A DNA stretch of 64,000 nt. Source: Pseudomonas sp. StFLB209. GTDB lineage: Bacteria > Pseudomonadota > Gammaproteobacteria > Pseudomonadales > Pseudomonadaceae. The notes below the pieces were generated by a model that was not told the origin of the DNA, made no database searches, and worked only from the letters and a program-made list of their open reading frames with translations. The stretch spans positions 2,368,001-2,432,000 of the forward strand of contig NZ_AP014637.1 in NCBI RefSeq assembly GCF_000829415.1, given 5' to 3'. Numbering within the stretch: position 1 is the first letter of the stretch; the number at the start of each line of letters is the position of its first letter. Below are positions 1,363 to 53,185 of this stretch, piece after piece. The position numbers and the translations under genes are program-made.

Positions 1363-2400
1363 ATGACCTATATCGCTGCCGAAAACCGCTACAACGACAT
1401 GCTCTATCGTCGCACCGGGCGCAGTGGCTTGTTGCTGCCGGCGCTGTCGCTGGGGCTGTGGCACAACTTCGGTGACGCCACGCCGATCGATACCCAGCGC
1501 GCCATGCTACGCACTGCCTTCGACCTGGGCATTACCCACTTCGACCTGGCCAATAATTACGGCCCGCCCTATGGTAGCGCCGAGGTCAATTTCGGCCGTT
1601 TGCTGCGTGAAGACTTCAAGGCTTATCGCGACGAGCTGATCATCTCCACCAAGGCCGGTTGGGACATGTGGCCAGGTCCTTATGGTCAGGGCGGCGGGTC
1701 GCGCAAGTACGTGCTGGCCAGCCTCGATCAAAGTCTGCAACGGCTGGGTGTCGATTATGTCGACATCTTCTATTCGCACCGCTTCGACCCCGACACGCCG
1801 CTGGAAGAAACCGCTGGCGCACTGGCCACCGCCGTGCAGCAAGGCAAGGCGCTGTACATCGGCATCTCGTCTTACTCGGGCAGTAAAACCCGGGAAATCG
1901 CCGCGCTGCTCAAACAGTGGAATGTGCCGCTGCTGATTCATCAGCCGGCTTATAACCTGCTCAATCGCTGGGTGGAGAAAGACCTGCTTGATGCCACCGA
2001 TGAGCTGGGCGCGGGCGTGATTGTCTTTACTGCGCTGGCCCAGGGCCTGCTGTCGGACAAGTACCTCAATGGCGTGCCGCAAGATGCCCGGGTCAATCGT
2101 CCCGGCGGTGGTTCATTGAAGGCCGAGCATCTGTCGGAGCAGAACCTTGAGCATGTACGCAAACTCAACGCGATCGCCCGGCAGCGTGGTCAGAGCCTGG
2201 CACAGATGGCGCTGGCCTGGACCCTGCGTGACCCACGGGTGACCTCGGCGTTGATCGGCGCCAGCCGGCCCGAGCAGATCGTCGAAAACGTTGCCGCCTT
2301 GAACAACCTGGCGTTCAGTGCCGAGGAACTGGCCGAGATTGATCGCTTTGCCGTGGAGGGCGGTATCAATTTGTGGGCCAGGCCTTCTTTGGCGCAGTAA
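1363..2400 (+). CDS. Aldo/keto reductase of the YghZ/MgrA (L-glyceraldehyde-3-phosphate reductase) type
   Basis: 345 residues, full length for the family. NADPH-dependent aldo/keto reductase TIM barrel. Visible signatures: the start MLYRRTGRSGLLLPALSLGLW, DLANNYGPPYGSAE containing the catalytic Asp and Tyr, STKAGWDMWPGPYG containing the catalytic Lys, DIFYSHRFDPDTPLEE, and the C-terminal cofactor site ALIGASRPEQIVENV. The MWPGPYG and YSHRFDPDTP motifs are characteristic of the YghZ/KCNAB-like subgroup that reduces L-glyceraldehyde 3-phosphate and methylglyoxal. AAGGAAATCCGC before the ATG gives a good ribosome site. The last 35 bases overlap the 3' end of the convergent amidase-like gene. A detoxification role is inferred from the family. 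Confidence 0.85.
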   Translation: MTYIAAENRYNDMLYRRTGRSGLLLPALSLGLWHNFGDATPIDTQRAMLRTAFDLGITHFDLANNYGPPYGSAEVNFGRLLREDFKAYRDELIISTKAGWDMWPGPYGQGGGSRKYVLASLDQSLQRLGVDYVDIFYSHRFDPDTPLEETAGALATAVQQGKALYIGISSYSGSKTREIAALLKQWNVPLLIHQPAYNLLNRWVEKDLLDATDELGAGVIVFTALAQGLLSDKYLNGVPQDARVNRPGGGSLKAEHLSEQNLEHVRKLNAIARQRGQSLAQMALAWTLRDPRVTSALIGASRPEQIVENVAALNNLAFSAEELAEIDRFAVEGGINLWARPSLAQ

Positions 2401-3574
2401 CGTTGGCGAGCCTCAGTGAGCCGATCCGCAGCGGCGGGGCGCTGTCATGGTAGTGCGGATAGCACGCCTGAAAGTCCAGGGCCGCCTGGATAAGCCTGGC
2501 GTCCGACAGGTGCGGGCCGCAGAACGCTGCATTGATGCTGGCACCGCTGCTGCTCTGGCCGATGGGGAAAGTGACCATCGGCCAGCCCGGCACATGGGGT
2601 AGCCTGTCAGGCCCGGACGATGCTGAGGACATCACCAGCATGCAGTCCAGGCGTTGATCGCGCAGGTTGCTTTCCCAGCCTCGCGGCGGGCATGGCGGTG
2701 CATCGGGAAGTTCGATCAATCGCGCTCCCAGGCGCGCCAGTTGCTCGCGAAACCGCTCCAGGACCTGCCAGCTTTGCGGCGCGTCCGCTGCCCTCGGCGG
2801 CGTTACGCCAATGCGGGTACTGAGCAGCGGTCTGTAGCCTGACCGGGCTGTCACCGGCCATCGCACGGGCGCGGTTTGCGCTGCACCGGCTTCACTGAGC
2901 GCTGCCAGCACCAGCGCTGCATCGCGCACGCTGCGTGCGACAGTACCGGGCACGTCCCAGCCCATGGCCAGGCCCAGCGACGGTTTGATGCCGCTGGCCG
3001 CATGAGCGGCACTGGGCATCATGAAGGCGTCATCGGCGGTTTGCGCCAGCGCCGCAGCGCACAGCCTGGCGACCGGGGCGATGGCGCTCAACCCGCTCTG
3101 CGTGCCACCGGGGCATATCGAGCCGCGCAGCGGGCCGAGTAAAATCGCGCCCTGGTCATACAGCCGGGCAACCAGCGGCGAGTCTTCAAGTTTCCAGGGC
3201 CGGCCATTACGCGCCACGGCCACCAGTGACTCGCTGATGCCCAGCACGATGCCGCACAGCAGCGGCGCAGGGCCGCGAGGGTCATCGGCGTTGCTCAGCC
3301 ATTGATCGGCCAGGCGCGCGCGGGTCAGCGCCTGCTGCGCATCGATATGCACCGAAAGGCTGTTGTCGCCATAGCCTTTGAGCGATTCTTCGAACCGGTA
3401 AAGGCGTGCCAGGCTGGCAATGGTCAACTGTTCGGCAGTCAGTTCGCCGCTGCGCAGCAGCACCGCCATTTCAGCGAGCTGATAGTCGACGATGCGGTTA
3501 GGGCAGCCAATGGATGACCGTGACGGCAGGCCGCACAGCGGCGGGCGGTTGCCAGTAAGAGGGCGTGGGTCCAT
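2366..3574 (-). CDS. Amidase-signature-fold protein lacking the catalytic triad
   Basis: 402 residues. Order and spacing match the amidase signature (AS) fold: an N-terminal helix LLRSGELTAEQLTIASL (about 39-56), a GIVLGISESL segment (109-118) where AS enzymes have GxPxxxKDN, PGGTQSGLSA (155-164) where they have PGGSSGGSA, ADDAFMMPSAA (180-190) where they have DTGGSIRIPA, and then SGIKPSLG and GTVARSVRDAALVLAAL, which are well conserved. So Lys, cis-Ser and nucleophile Ser all appear replaced. It is also shorter than typical AS enzymes (about 450-500). AGGAG lies 9 bases before the ATG. A non-hydrolytic role (binding or regulation) or a decaying gene are both possible; the open frame and normal codon use argue against a recent pseudogene. 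Confidence 0.7.
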   Translation of the reverse strand: MDPRPLTGNRPPLCGLPSRSSIGCPNRIVDYQLAEMAVLLRSGELTAEQLTIASLARLYRFEESLKGYGDNSLSVHIDAQQALTRARLADQWLSNADDPRGPAPLLCGIVLGISESLVAVARNGRPWKLEDSPLVARLYDQGAILLGPLRGSICPGGTQSGLSAIAPVARLCAAALAQTADDAFMMPSAAHAASGIKPSLGLAMGWDVPGTVARSVRDAALVLAALSEAGAAQTAPVRWPVTARSGYRPLLSTRIGVTPPRAADAPQSWQVLERFREQLARLGARLIELPDAPPCPPRGWESNLRDQRLDCMLVMSSASSGPDRLPHVPGWPMVTFPIGQSSSGASINAAFCGPHLSDARLIQAALDFQACYPHYHDSAPPLRIGSLRLANVTAPKKAWPTN

Positions 3575-3703
3575 CGCGATAAGCTCCTTCTGGCCTTGCC
3601 ATGCAAGGCCGTTTTCCGGAGCTAATCAGCGAACGGCAGGGGCGTAAACTGATAGAAATGACAGCAGGCCGTGCAGCCCTTGGCGGGCGGGCCTGCCCTT
3701 TCG

Positions 3704-5140
3704 TCAGTTGTCTTCGGCCTCGTCTTCGTCGCCGCCATCAACCTTCATGCCCAGTTCCTTGATCTTGCGCGTCAGGGTATTGCGACCCCAACCGAGCAGC
3801 ACGGCGGCGTCACGACGGCGACCAGCGGTGTGCTTGAGGGCGGTTTCGATCATGATCCGTTCAAAGGATGGCACCGCGCTGTCGAGCAGGCTCGACTGGC
3901 CACGTGACAACGCCTGATCGGCCCACTGGCGCAGCGCCTGTTCCCAGTTGGTGATCGGGCCTGCATCCTGCGGCACGCTAAGCAGTTCAGGCGGCAGGTC
4001 GCTGATGTGCACCTCACGGCCAGACGCCATGACGGTGATCCAGCGGCAGGTATTCTCCAGTTGCCGCACGTTACCCTGCCACGGCAGATGCTTGAGGTAT
4101 TCCTCGGTCTCGGCCTTGAGCAGCTTGGGCTCGACGGCCAGTTCCTGGGCGGCGCGGCTGAGAAAGTGGCGGGCCAGGGTCGGGATGTCTTCGCGGCGGT
4201 CCGACAGCCGTGGAATATGAATGCGGATGACGTTCAGGCGGTGGAACAAGTCTTCGCGGAACTTGCCGGCATGCACCAGACCTTCAAGGTTCTGGTGGGT
4301 CGCGGCGATGATCCGTACATCGACCTTGACCGGGGTGTGGCCACCGACCCGGTAGAACTCGCCGTCGGCCAGTACGCGCAACAGGCGGGTCTGGGTGTCG
4401 GCCGGCATGTCGCCGATCTCGTCGAGAAACAAGGTACCGCCATCGGCTTGTTCGAAGCGTCCGCGGCGCAGGTTGGCGGCACCGGTGAAGGCGCCTTTTT
4501 CATGGCCGAACAGCTCCGATTCCATCAAGTCCTTGGGGATCGCCGCCATGTTCAGCGCAATGAACGGCGCGACGGCACGTGGGCTGTGACGATGCAGAGC
4601 ATGCGCGACCAGCTCTTTACCGGTACCGGACTCACCGTTGATCAACACGGTAATATTGGAGTGGCTCAGACGACCGATGGCGCGAAACACCTCTTGCATC
4701 GCCGGCGCTTCGCCGATGATTTCCGGGGTGCGGGCCATGACCGGCGGAGCTTCCAGGCCTTGCTGTTCCTGGGCGTGCTGGTTGGCACGCTTGACCAGTG
4801 ATACGGCTTCATCGACATCGAACGGCTTGGGCAGGTATTCGAACGCGCCGCCCTGATAGGACGCCACGGCACTGTCGAGGTCCGAATGCGCGGTCATGAT
4901 GATGACCGGCAGGCGCGGGTTCTGTTCACGAATCCGCGCCAACAGGTCCAGGCCACTGGTACCGGGCATGCGAATATCGGAAATGATCACGTCCGGCTGC
5001 TGGCGCGCCAGACGGCTGATCACCCCATCGGCGCTGTCGAAGCTCTGCGTGGTCATGCCTTCCTGTTGCAGGGCTTTTTCCAGTACCCAGCGGATGGAAC
5101 GATCGTCATCTACGATCCAGACAGTTTCGCTACGGCTCAC
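3704..5140 (-). CDS. ntrC: Nitrogen regulation response regulator NtrC
   Basis: 478 residues. Sigma-54-dependent activator that, when phosphorylated by NtrB, switches on glnA and other nitrogen-scavenging genes. Three domains are visible: receiver (1-120, acidic pocket D11-D13, phospho-acceptor D55 in IISDIRMPG, Lys in PKPFD); AAA+ core (about 140-370) with Walker A GESGTGKE, the sigma-54 contact loop GAFTGA, and Walker B GGTLFLDEIGDM; and a C-terminal Fis-type helix-turn-helix (AALKHTAGRRRDAAVLLGWGRNTLTRK, last 45 residues). Its ATG overlaps the ntrB stop by 4 bases, so the two are translationally coupled. NtrC-type boxes lie upstream of ntrB and of glnA in this window. The acidic tail DGGDEDEAED is unusual but short. 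Confidence 0.97.
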   Translation of the reverse strand: MSRSETVWIVDDDRSIRWVLEKALQQEGMTTQSFDSADGVISRLARQQPDVIISDIRMPGTSGLDLLARIREQNPRLPVIIMTAHSDLDSAVASYQGGAFEYLPKPFDVDEAVSLVKRANQHAQEQQGLEAPPVMARTPEIIGEAPAMQEVFRAIGRLSHSNITVLINGESGTGKELVAHALHRHSPRAVAPFIALNMAAIPKDLMESELFGHEKGAFTGAANLRRGRFEQADGGTLFLDEIGDMPADTQTRLLRVLADGEFYRVGGHTPVKVDVRIIAATHQNLEGLVHAGKFREDLFHRLNVIRIHIPRLSDRREDIPTLARHFLSRAAQELAVEPKLLKAETEEYLKHLPWQGNVRQLENTCRWITVMASGREVHISDLPPELLSVPQDAGPITNWEQALRQWADQALSRGQSSLLDSAVPSFERIMIETALKHTAGRRRDAAVLLGWGRNTLTRKIKELGMKVDGGDEDEAEDN

Positions 5141-20460: not shown

Positions 20461-20495
20461 TGGGGGACTCCGGCAAATCAGGCTAATCAGTCGGA

Positions 20496-20627
20496 CACCT
20501 CTAAAAACGGCCTGCGTTGTCATTGCTGCGTTGAAACCGGACTCGGAATGCTCATGTGCTTCAGCACACTGCGCTTCCTTGCCTGTTTCGCCTTGCGCTG
20601 ACTGCCTCGCCTGCGTTTTCAGAGGTG
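20496..20627 (-). repeat. 133-bp hairpin/TIR element, copy 1
   Basis: Ends are inverted repeats: CACCTCTAAAAACG and CGTTTTCAGAGGTG match at 13 of 14 positions. On the minus strand the centre is GCGCAGTGTGC-TGAA-GCACATGAGC, a short hairpin, followed by TTTCAACGCAGCAATGACAA. Related copies occur at 35580 and 52827. Confidence 0.75.
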
Positions 20628-20969
20628 CCCATCAAGGGGAGTGAGCTTCTAGTGATCCACATGCAAGACGGCATTGATCGCATGCAGGGAAATAACCGAA
20701 AGCTACGGGATCACCGTGCACTCGGCCTGAGCTCATAAACCCGCCGGGGGATGACTGGCGATGAATAGCGCCGATTCTACACCGCTCGGGCGTGCTTGGC
20801 ATGGCGTCTGATCGTCGTGCGGTAAATCATCCTGCGACAAAGCAGTTTTGTTTGTAGGGATTTTCTGAAGTTGCTGTCGAGGGTTTTTCCCTCGTTTATC
20901 GTCCCGATAGGATGCCCGCACTGAATGGATCTCGCTGGCGTCGGTCGGCTCAAGTGATGAGGTGAAGAG
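20628..20969. other. Intergenic stretch upstream of the zinc-ribbon gene
   Basis: No gene is supported. A small hairpin CGAGGG-TTTTT-CCCTCG is at 20878-20894. I see no clear promoter or regulatory box. Confidence 0.4.
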
Positions 20970-35418: not shown

Positions 35419-35807
35419 TGGTCATTTGAACCTGTAAGACGGGCCGCCAGGACTTAGCGTCTGCGGGCACGGGGGTGTTAGGATACTGATCCGTTTGCGG
35501 CGCGAACAACCCTCAAGGGCCCGCGGCCCATGAAACTTGTTTCAGGCAAGGGTGAATCGGGTGCCGCTTAACGAGGGGGTGTTTATAAAATAGGCGAGCG
35601 AAGGCAAGACAAGGCGAGATTGGCCGAAAAAGCGCAGTGTACATTTTGTACATGAGCTTTTTGAGGTCAATTTCAACGCAGTATTGCCGAGTGCAGCCAT
35701 TTTGTAGACGCACTCTGAACAAGCGGCCCTGATCGCAGTCTGTTGGCATGTCGCCTTTTTTCCGGAACGCCTGTGGGCGTTTCGCTACTTTGAGATAGCC
35801 GTCCTCC
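35419..35807. other. Divergent intergenic region between M16 peptidase and ftsY
   Basis: 389 bases, dominated by the 133-bp hairpin/TIR element. The remainder contains no gene I can support; a short A/T-rich stretch near 35640 belongs to the element's central hairpin. ftsY's own promoter is not evident. Confidence 0.5.
35580..35712 (+). repeat. 133-bp hairpin/TIR element, copy 2
   Basis: Same outline as copies at 20496 and 52827: terminal arms TTTATAAAATAGGCG and GCCATTTTGTAGACGC, then AAGGCAAGACAAGGCGAG, a central hairpin GTGTAC-ATTTT-GTACATGAGC, and TTTCAACGCAGTATTGCC. It lies 96 bases upstream of ftsY. Confidence 0.7.
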
Positions 35808-52785: not shown

Positions 52786-53185
52786 CTTTACGACCTCAAG
52801 CTATCAGACGAGTGAAGGTTCAACGGCCCCGCTAAGAACGGCCTGCGTTGCCATCGCTGCGTTAAAAACAGGCTCACACTGCTCATTTACACCCCGTAAA
52901 CTCCGCTTGCTCGCCTGTTTTTGCCTTGCGCTGGCTGTCTCGCTCACGTTTTTAGAGGCGCCCTCAAGTTATTTGACTGTAGGCGTGTCGCCGGTTATTT
53001 CCTGAAAAAATCGCAATCAATAAAAAACCGCATGGGGTCTCTGACCGGAGCTGCGCGCTCTGGTTCGCACGCTTGGCGTTCAGAAACGGACGATCATCAA
53101 CGTGCAGCATGCTGATGACTCGTTTCGGGTTTATGATGACCTCGGCAGTATTGATGACGCCCTCGAACCGGAACATGGAGCCGCT
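52786..53185. other. Divergent region between glgP and pip
   Basis: 400 bases. The left third is the 133-bp hairpin/TIR element. The rest holds an A/T-rich stretch (CAATCAATAAAAAACC) and an upstream open extension of the pip frame (from 53102) without a ribosome site. I see no other gene. Confidence 0.5.
52827..52960 (-). repeat. 133-bp hairpin/TIR element, copy 3
   Basis: Minus-strand order: CGCCTCTAAAAACGTGAGCG, CAGCGCAAGGCAAAAACAGG, central hairpin GTTTAC-GGGG-TGTAAATGAGC, then TTTTTAACGCAGCGATGGCA and AACGCAGGCCGTTCTTAGCG. The outer arms pair imperfectly. Related to copies at 20496 and 35580. Confidence 0.75.

Follow-up and report, generated by a model that had tools for sequence, protein, structure and literature searches.

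A probable ERIC-like MITE that combines a conserved folded core with exchangeable ends in Pseudomonas sp. StFLB209 and distant bacteria

The window analyzed here, a stretch of 64,000 nucleotides from Pseudomonas sp. StFLB209 (contig NZ_AP014637.1), contains three copies of an element of about 140 bp that is probably a non-autonomous, ERIC-like MITE, in which a folded core is conserved and the ends are exchangeable. The stems of the core covary, target duplications flank many copies, relatives lack a copy at the same site, and the family is present in genomes of different phyla. An earlier, sequence-only reading of the window had proposed either a non-autonomous MITE-type element or a structured RNA; the target duplications and the empty site support the MITE-like option, and the fold does covary. 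That reading did not mention that several end types share one core, that the family extends over several phyla or that it resembles ERIC.

All three copies described earlier are present in the window (Table 1), with their true ends lying 3-5 bp further out than had been reported. The 13 of 14 matching positions given for the inverted arms of copy 1 are correct, and over the outermost 17 bases 15 match; the three central stems are likewise as described. Copies 1 and 3 run in one orientation and copy 2 in the other, which had been missed. No target duplication is visible by eye at copies 1 and 2. The neighboring genes of all three copies were named by family search, the matches of the M16-peptidase-like neighbor of copy 2 falling below curated cut-offs.

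Table 1. Features of the three copies in the window
Feature	Position	Strand	Description
Copy 1	20493..20630	+	138 bp long with type A ends (GGACACCTCTAAAAAC...GTTTTCAGAGGTGCCC); 32 bp upstream of the start codon of ilvD
Core of copy 1	20527..20596	+	Stem TGTGC/GCACA; conserved
Copy 2	35575..35715	-	141 bp long with type B ends; flanked by ftsY (plus) and an M16-peptidase-like gene (minus)
Core of copy 2	35609..35680	-	Stem TGTAC/GTACA; position hand-counted from the aligned copy
Copy 3	52824..52963	+	Degenerate type A ends, 140 bp, in the interval between glycogen phosphorylase (minus) and prolyl aminopeptidase (plus)
Core of copy 3	52858..52929	+	Stem TTTAC/GTAAA; position hand-counted from the aligned copy
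Target duplication of copy 3, left half	52820..52823		TCAA (4 bp), from the sequence
Target duplication of copy 3, right half	52964..52967		TCAA (4 bp), from the sequence

The sequence-only reading had allowed that a genome search might return only these three sites. DNA searches of the whole 6.33-Mb genome gave 41 matches with copy 1 and 25 with copy 2, the sites being partly identical. We extracted 44 copies and aligned 38, excluding six (L016, L029, L038, L041, L042 and L043) because they carry insertions or are degenerate. A covariance model built on the 38 aligned copies found 84 matches in the genome among the best 150 of 1962 candidates, three of which represent the same site on the other strand, leaving about 81 sites. 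The element is short, multicopy, free of a transposase inside and bounded by terminal inverted repeats, as is usual of MITEs. What is conserved in it is a 72-nt core that forms an imperfect hairpin, and what varies is the terminal inverted repeats. In Gammaproteobacteria the core comprises, in order, NGCGTTRAAANNNNNNCTCAAAATGCTCA, a 5-bp stem, a short loop, the stem partner, CTSCGCTTTTTCG, a variable arm and TTTYGCCTTG.

RNAalifold applied to the 38 copies predicted 32 pairs; for 17 of these, one or more copies have both partners changed. We then examined covariation in two wider sets. For the class, 55 loci were chosen, one antisense match was set aside, and 56 of 57 distinct cores were used, the one dropped having a 15-nt insertion. 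Over 23 pairs, 95.6% of the cells were paired and both-side changes occurred in 18 pairs; the 185 both-side cells compare with 43±8 in 500 shuffles and with at most 39 in slid controls. Because the structure for this set was drawn from the earlier fold plus the very sequences tested, more weight falls on the Bacteroidota set, whose 27 cores (26 distinct) had no part in defining the structure. Here 14 pairs were tested, the outer arm pairs being omitted because the alignment is uncertain there; 98.1% of cells were paired, 10 pairs showed both-side changes, and there were 38 both-side cells against 9.3±2.5 in shuffles and at most 16 in slid controls. Four of the five measures were equalled by none of 500 shuffles, and the fifth, further pair types (13), by 16. 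The stem changes are thus compensatory in a larger alignment, as the sequence-only reading had supposed. Copies were gathered by models or by an exact core pattern, which favors well-paired copies, and the claim of covariation stands despite this bias. Given the family-wide matches and the compensatory changes above both kinds of control, the three window copies are not a chance resemblance.

The mobility of the element was assessed through target duplications, which were scored with preset end patterns on copies with distinct flanks, the expectation being obtained from re-paired flanks. Of 89 copies with type A ends (GGGNNCCTCTAAAA; GGGCACCTCTAAAAA), 32 are flanked by a 4-bp duplication, where 1.4 would be expected. 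Type C ends (CAGNCNGTTGAAAA; CAGGCTGTTGAAAA) also have a 4-bp duplication, mostly YTAR, in 48 of 89 copies (11.7 expected), 38 of these 48 being CTAG, CTAA, TTAA or TTAG. The duplications are 5 bp long for type B ends (AGGGTGTNTACAAAA; AGGGTGTTTACAAAA), where CTNAG is duplicated in 5 of 20 copies (1.1 expected), and for type D ends (GAGACCTTTGCACG), with 4 of 7 (0.6 expected). No clear duplication was seen for types H, N and C2 and two Alistipes types (6, 4, 8, 7 and 13 copies, respectively). A search for empty orthologous sites, which the sequence-only reading had also proposed, was partly successful. The flanks of the StFLB209 copy at 3594411-3594550 (duplication ATGT) were recovered in 18 same-genus loci at roughly 82-90% identity, and none of the 18 contains the core at E 0.001. 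When six of these loci were compared with the StFLB209 flanks joined together, they matched across the intergenic region except for a gap of several bases where the flanks meet, such that the empty site is not base-precise. By eye, one of the 18 (L327) holds a different, disrupted element. The duplications, well above those of re-paired flanks, and the absence from the same site in relatives support the mobility of the copies.

Comparison of 200 typed copies reveals that in types A and C the ends and the core vary separately. Mean core identity is 0.85 within type A, 0.87 within type C and 0.85 between A and C; the corresponding values for the 16-bp ends are 0.86, 0.91 and 0.49. Two StFLB209 copies, L011 of type A and L028 of type C, illustrate the point, their cores being 98.6% alike and their ends 50%. 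Thus, end types A and C sit on the same core, with different duplication rules. Type B is not freely exchanged in the StFLB209 genome, where its ends go with their own core lineage, since core identity there is 0.89 within B as against 0.71 for A-B and 0.69 for B-C; over all copies the values are 0.76, 0.75 and 0.77. The maximum A-B core identity is an artefact because one copy (L033) fits both patterns. The ends of three copies from Bacteroidales, L422 (GGGACTTCTAAAAAT), L425 and L427, resemble the type A ends of Pseudomonas; therefore, judging by this resemblance, an end type may also be common to different phyla.

The StFLB209 copies also vary in structure. Pairs of type A ends lie 39-209 bp apart, and the range includes forms of 39-54 bp with nearly no interior. 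Three such minimal elements, L062 (4268931-4268969), L059 and L064, consist of scarcely more than two type A ends, and the latter two retain a 4-bp duplication. Elsewhere, a type B copy (3708768-3708926) and a type A copy (3708985-3709124) are 58 bp apart. GC-rich REP-like hairpins (GGGCGCCTGCGGCGCTACGCGCG or nearly so) are spliced into the arms of L061, L063 and L065-L067, with GTCGAGCGCGACTCCGAC, or nearly so, also found within the arms of L061, L063 and L067; this would fit a second repeat family inserting into the copies or rebuilding them.

Searches for an autonomous partner were made in several sets. In the StFLB209 genome the lists for types A and B contain no transposase-size pair of matching ends. 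For type C ends, no partner was found among the matches listed, which cover genomes G082 and G118 and part of G123. Eleven end patterns run on the loci of at least 3 kb (of 412) yielded two candidate pairs, in L289 and L255, and no confirmed partner. The L289 pair was rejected, as by eye it encloses a RecD-like helicase gene. The L255 pair (1673-3935, on a Desulfobacterales contig) consists of two type C-like ends 2.26 kb apart.

The mismatches in the core bear on which of its two strands folds. In 240 distinct cores read on the sense strand, A.C mismatches outnumber G.T mismatches by 128 to 41, excluding a constant T.G pair; counted per cluster at 90, 85 and 80% identity and omitting the 19-53 pair, the ratios are 52:23, 29:12 and 19:6. 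Pyrimidine and purine mismatches on the sense strand stand at 29:12 in the 85% clusters, which carry no tree correction. On the opposite strand the same positions read as G.U and purine mismatches, and both of the fixed internal loops turn G.A-rich. This pattern of mismatches lends moderate support to the proposal that the functional fold forms on the strand opposite to sense, as RNA or single-stranded DNA, in which case the folding strand would read 5'-CAAGGC RAAA N5 CGAAAAAGCGSAG (stem) loop (stem) UGAGCAUUUUGAG N5 UUUY AACGC-3'. The same asymmetry bears on the idea that the compensatory changes reflect template-switch correction in a quasi-palindrome, with one arm copied onto the other, rather than selection for folding. 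In its favor, the element is nearly a palindrome, and between end types A and C both arms differ in concert over their outer 10-12 bp, a pattern well explained by copying from arm to arm. Such copying would, however, also erase internal mismatches, whereas the class set, and for the most part Bacteroidota too, retains the mismatched loops TC/TC and TCA/CTSC, and the mismatches are strand-asymmetric. We therefore regard template switching as an improbable source of the covariation.

A fold of this kind could alternatively belong to a structured RNA that mainly benefits the host, for instance as a processed or stabilizing segment of messages, and that has been dispersed by happenstance. The strong covariation and the conserved internal loops would suit such an RNA, as would the fact that every window copy has one or more genes downstream of it, with two of the three lying between divergent genes. 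With gene calls from a simple in-house finder, the folding strand is oriented with tandem genes at 29:11 in the StFLB209 genome; the bias is absent from the other sets examined (23:20), because of which a general role as a 5'-leader is unsupported and was dropped. The target duplications are transposon-like, and Rfam gave no match for the whole window at the gathering threshold, for copy 1 up to E 5, or for L114, L151 and L205 at gathering. On balance a primarily host-serving RNA appears unlikely. A translation start on the folding strand (GGAG...AUG) was also considered and rejected: among 46 cluster representatives the base on which GGAG depends varies on the sense strand between C (0.59) and G (0.41), so the ribosome site is not conserved.

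The family has a wide host range. At E 0.001 a match was found in 127 of 149 genomes of the genus (best 21 candidates at most per genome), in 111 of 274 genomes and 94 of 222 genera of the class (best 11 at most), and in 34 of 149 genomes of the order of an Alistipes genome (best 33 at most), the center genome being included in each count. Six genomes chosen for holding a match have from 52 to at least 150 matches each. A pattern scan of named genomes returned at least 120 stretches. Those listed include Pseudomonas, Halomonas and relatives, Marinobacter, Thiotrichales, Chromatiales, Methylococcaceae and Nitrosomonadales, as well as Desulfobacterales, Alistipes, Rikenellaceae and Bacteroidaceae; these hosts we take to represent Pseudomonadota, Bacteroidota and Desulfobacterota. 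Since numerous independent Alistipes assemblies carry the element with ends and stems of their own, contamination is an unlikely source there, although these assemblies, like the other named Bacteroidota and Desulfobacterota records, derive from metagenomes. Matches outside chromosomes are few: a type C copy matched 16 of 72,556 plasmid records, an Alistipes copy matched none of the plasmid records, and the exact core pattern occurs in 4 stretches of viral contigs; hence vectors are not evident.

In organization the element resembles the enterobacterial ERIC. The two have the same block order (GCGTT, GCTCA, TCA-stem-loop-stem-CTCC, GCCTT), and both are intergenic, imperfect palindromes with a central 5-bp stem that covaries between TCA and CTCC (here CTSC). 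The ERIC consensus used to compare them is sound, with matches in 5376 of 5426 E. coli genomes. Within an ERIC locus of E. coli the best hit of the core models is exactly the ERIC center, with weak scores (8.7 bits, E 0.18; 13 bits, E 0.034), and a core profile ranks that copy above each of 150 shuffles and each of 80 E. coli windows. Over eight ERIC copies the profile gives z from 0.5 to 3.2 (mean 2.2), with three of the eight above all 60 shuffles and one tie. The ERIC stem itself varies in step (CTTAC/GTAAG, CATAG/CTATG, CCTAC/GTAGG, CATAC/GTATG) between TCA and CTCC that are invariant in the eight copies, one of which (L418) breaks a pair. Together these sequence comparisons suggest, with moderate support, that our element is probably a distant relative of ERIC.

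A simpler view would be that the family is ERIC itself, already described and now extended to other hosts. The common block order, the placement of the best model hit and the stem varying in step in ERIC all favor it; the weakness of those hits and the modest profile scores count against it, as does a BLAST search with the core that returned nothing from 20,395 E. coli records at E up to 10. Furthermore, the terminal repeats and the hosts differ, the length is 140 bp as opposed to about 127 bp for ERIC/IRU/RU-1, and the duplications are of 4-5 bp instead of the TA given for ERIC in a 2007 paper, which describes the mechanism of ERIC transfer as not elucidated (PMC2759123). Identity with ERIC is accordingly rather doubtful, and we call the family ERIC-like without filing it as ERIC. 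One copy may be placed between the two: L413, from a plasmid of Candidatus Fukatsuia symbiotica, an enterobacterial aphid symbiont, has a core of the Pseudomonas kind and not of the ERIC kind, and is a possible link between them. As a separate observation, copy 1 adjoins ilvD across the gap 20461-20492, and the ERIC copy L418, from a plasmid of Citrobacter, has ilvD on one side and a transaminase gene on the other; this common adjacency is probably a coincidence.

Several other systems were considered, likenesses to integron attC sites and to k-turns among them. Tn3-derived TIME elements have Tn3-type ends and a 5-bp duplication; the first bases of type A ends presumably resemble Tn3 ends, but such an origin is not supported, as type A duplicates 4 bp and not 5. 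REP and REPIN sequences are defined by a GTAG- or CGTC-tagged palindrome of 20-40 bp with a RAYT. These are intergenic palindromes of Pseudomonas (PMC3116915), and hairpins that we named REP-like by eye lie within some of our copies; unlike them, our element is longer and has terminal repeats and target duplications. MITEs such as MITEAba12 are similarly short and non-coding, with terminal inverted repeats and target duplications. MITEAba12 has ends in common with the co-resident ISAba12 (PMC6382973), whereas the partner searches described above found no such IS and it is the interior, not the ends, that is conserved here. Within Pseudomonas, Silby et al. 2009 describe the P. fluorescens repeat R178, named alongside the intergenic repeat R30, as 101 bp long with an internal 11-bp inverted repeat and 18, 28 and 9 copies in three strains (PMC2718517), and compared by this description R178 could be the core of our element. 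The stem-loop family Ppu-9 of P. putida is entered at 124 bp with 57(31) elements in a table of its source (PMC2267715). By their descriptions, R178 and Ppu-9 may both be parts of this family. A literature search, with subscription papers and supplements outside its scope, returned no account of such a family.

In light of the above observations, we propose that different transposases supplied in trans would act on the different end types, while something widely conserved would recognize the fold as RNA or single-stranded DNA; this putative recognition might let the element multiply or be tolerated. In its broadest and more tentative form, which we put forward as quite possible while leaning somewhat against it, the proposal would be that of an ancient non-coding mobile cassette, with ERIC as one branch, present in at least Pseudomonadota, Bacteroidota and Desulfobacterota, its core conserved through a conserved cell factor and its ends swapped between transposases. 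Ordinary MITEs match an insertion sequence at their ends, and their interior can vary freely. The family described here is the reverse, with an inside that is conserved through compensatory changes across phyla and with ends and duplication rules that vary. The same folded core with different ends in distant bacteria hints at one parasite moved by several transposition enzymes, and if ERIC belongs to the same family, the puzzle of its movement would gain many informative relatives with clear ends and targets.
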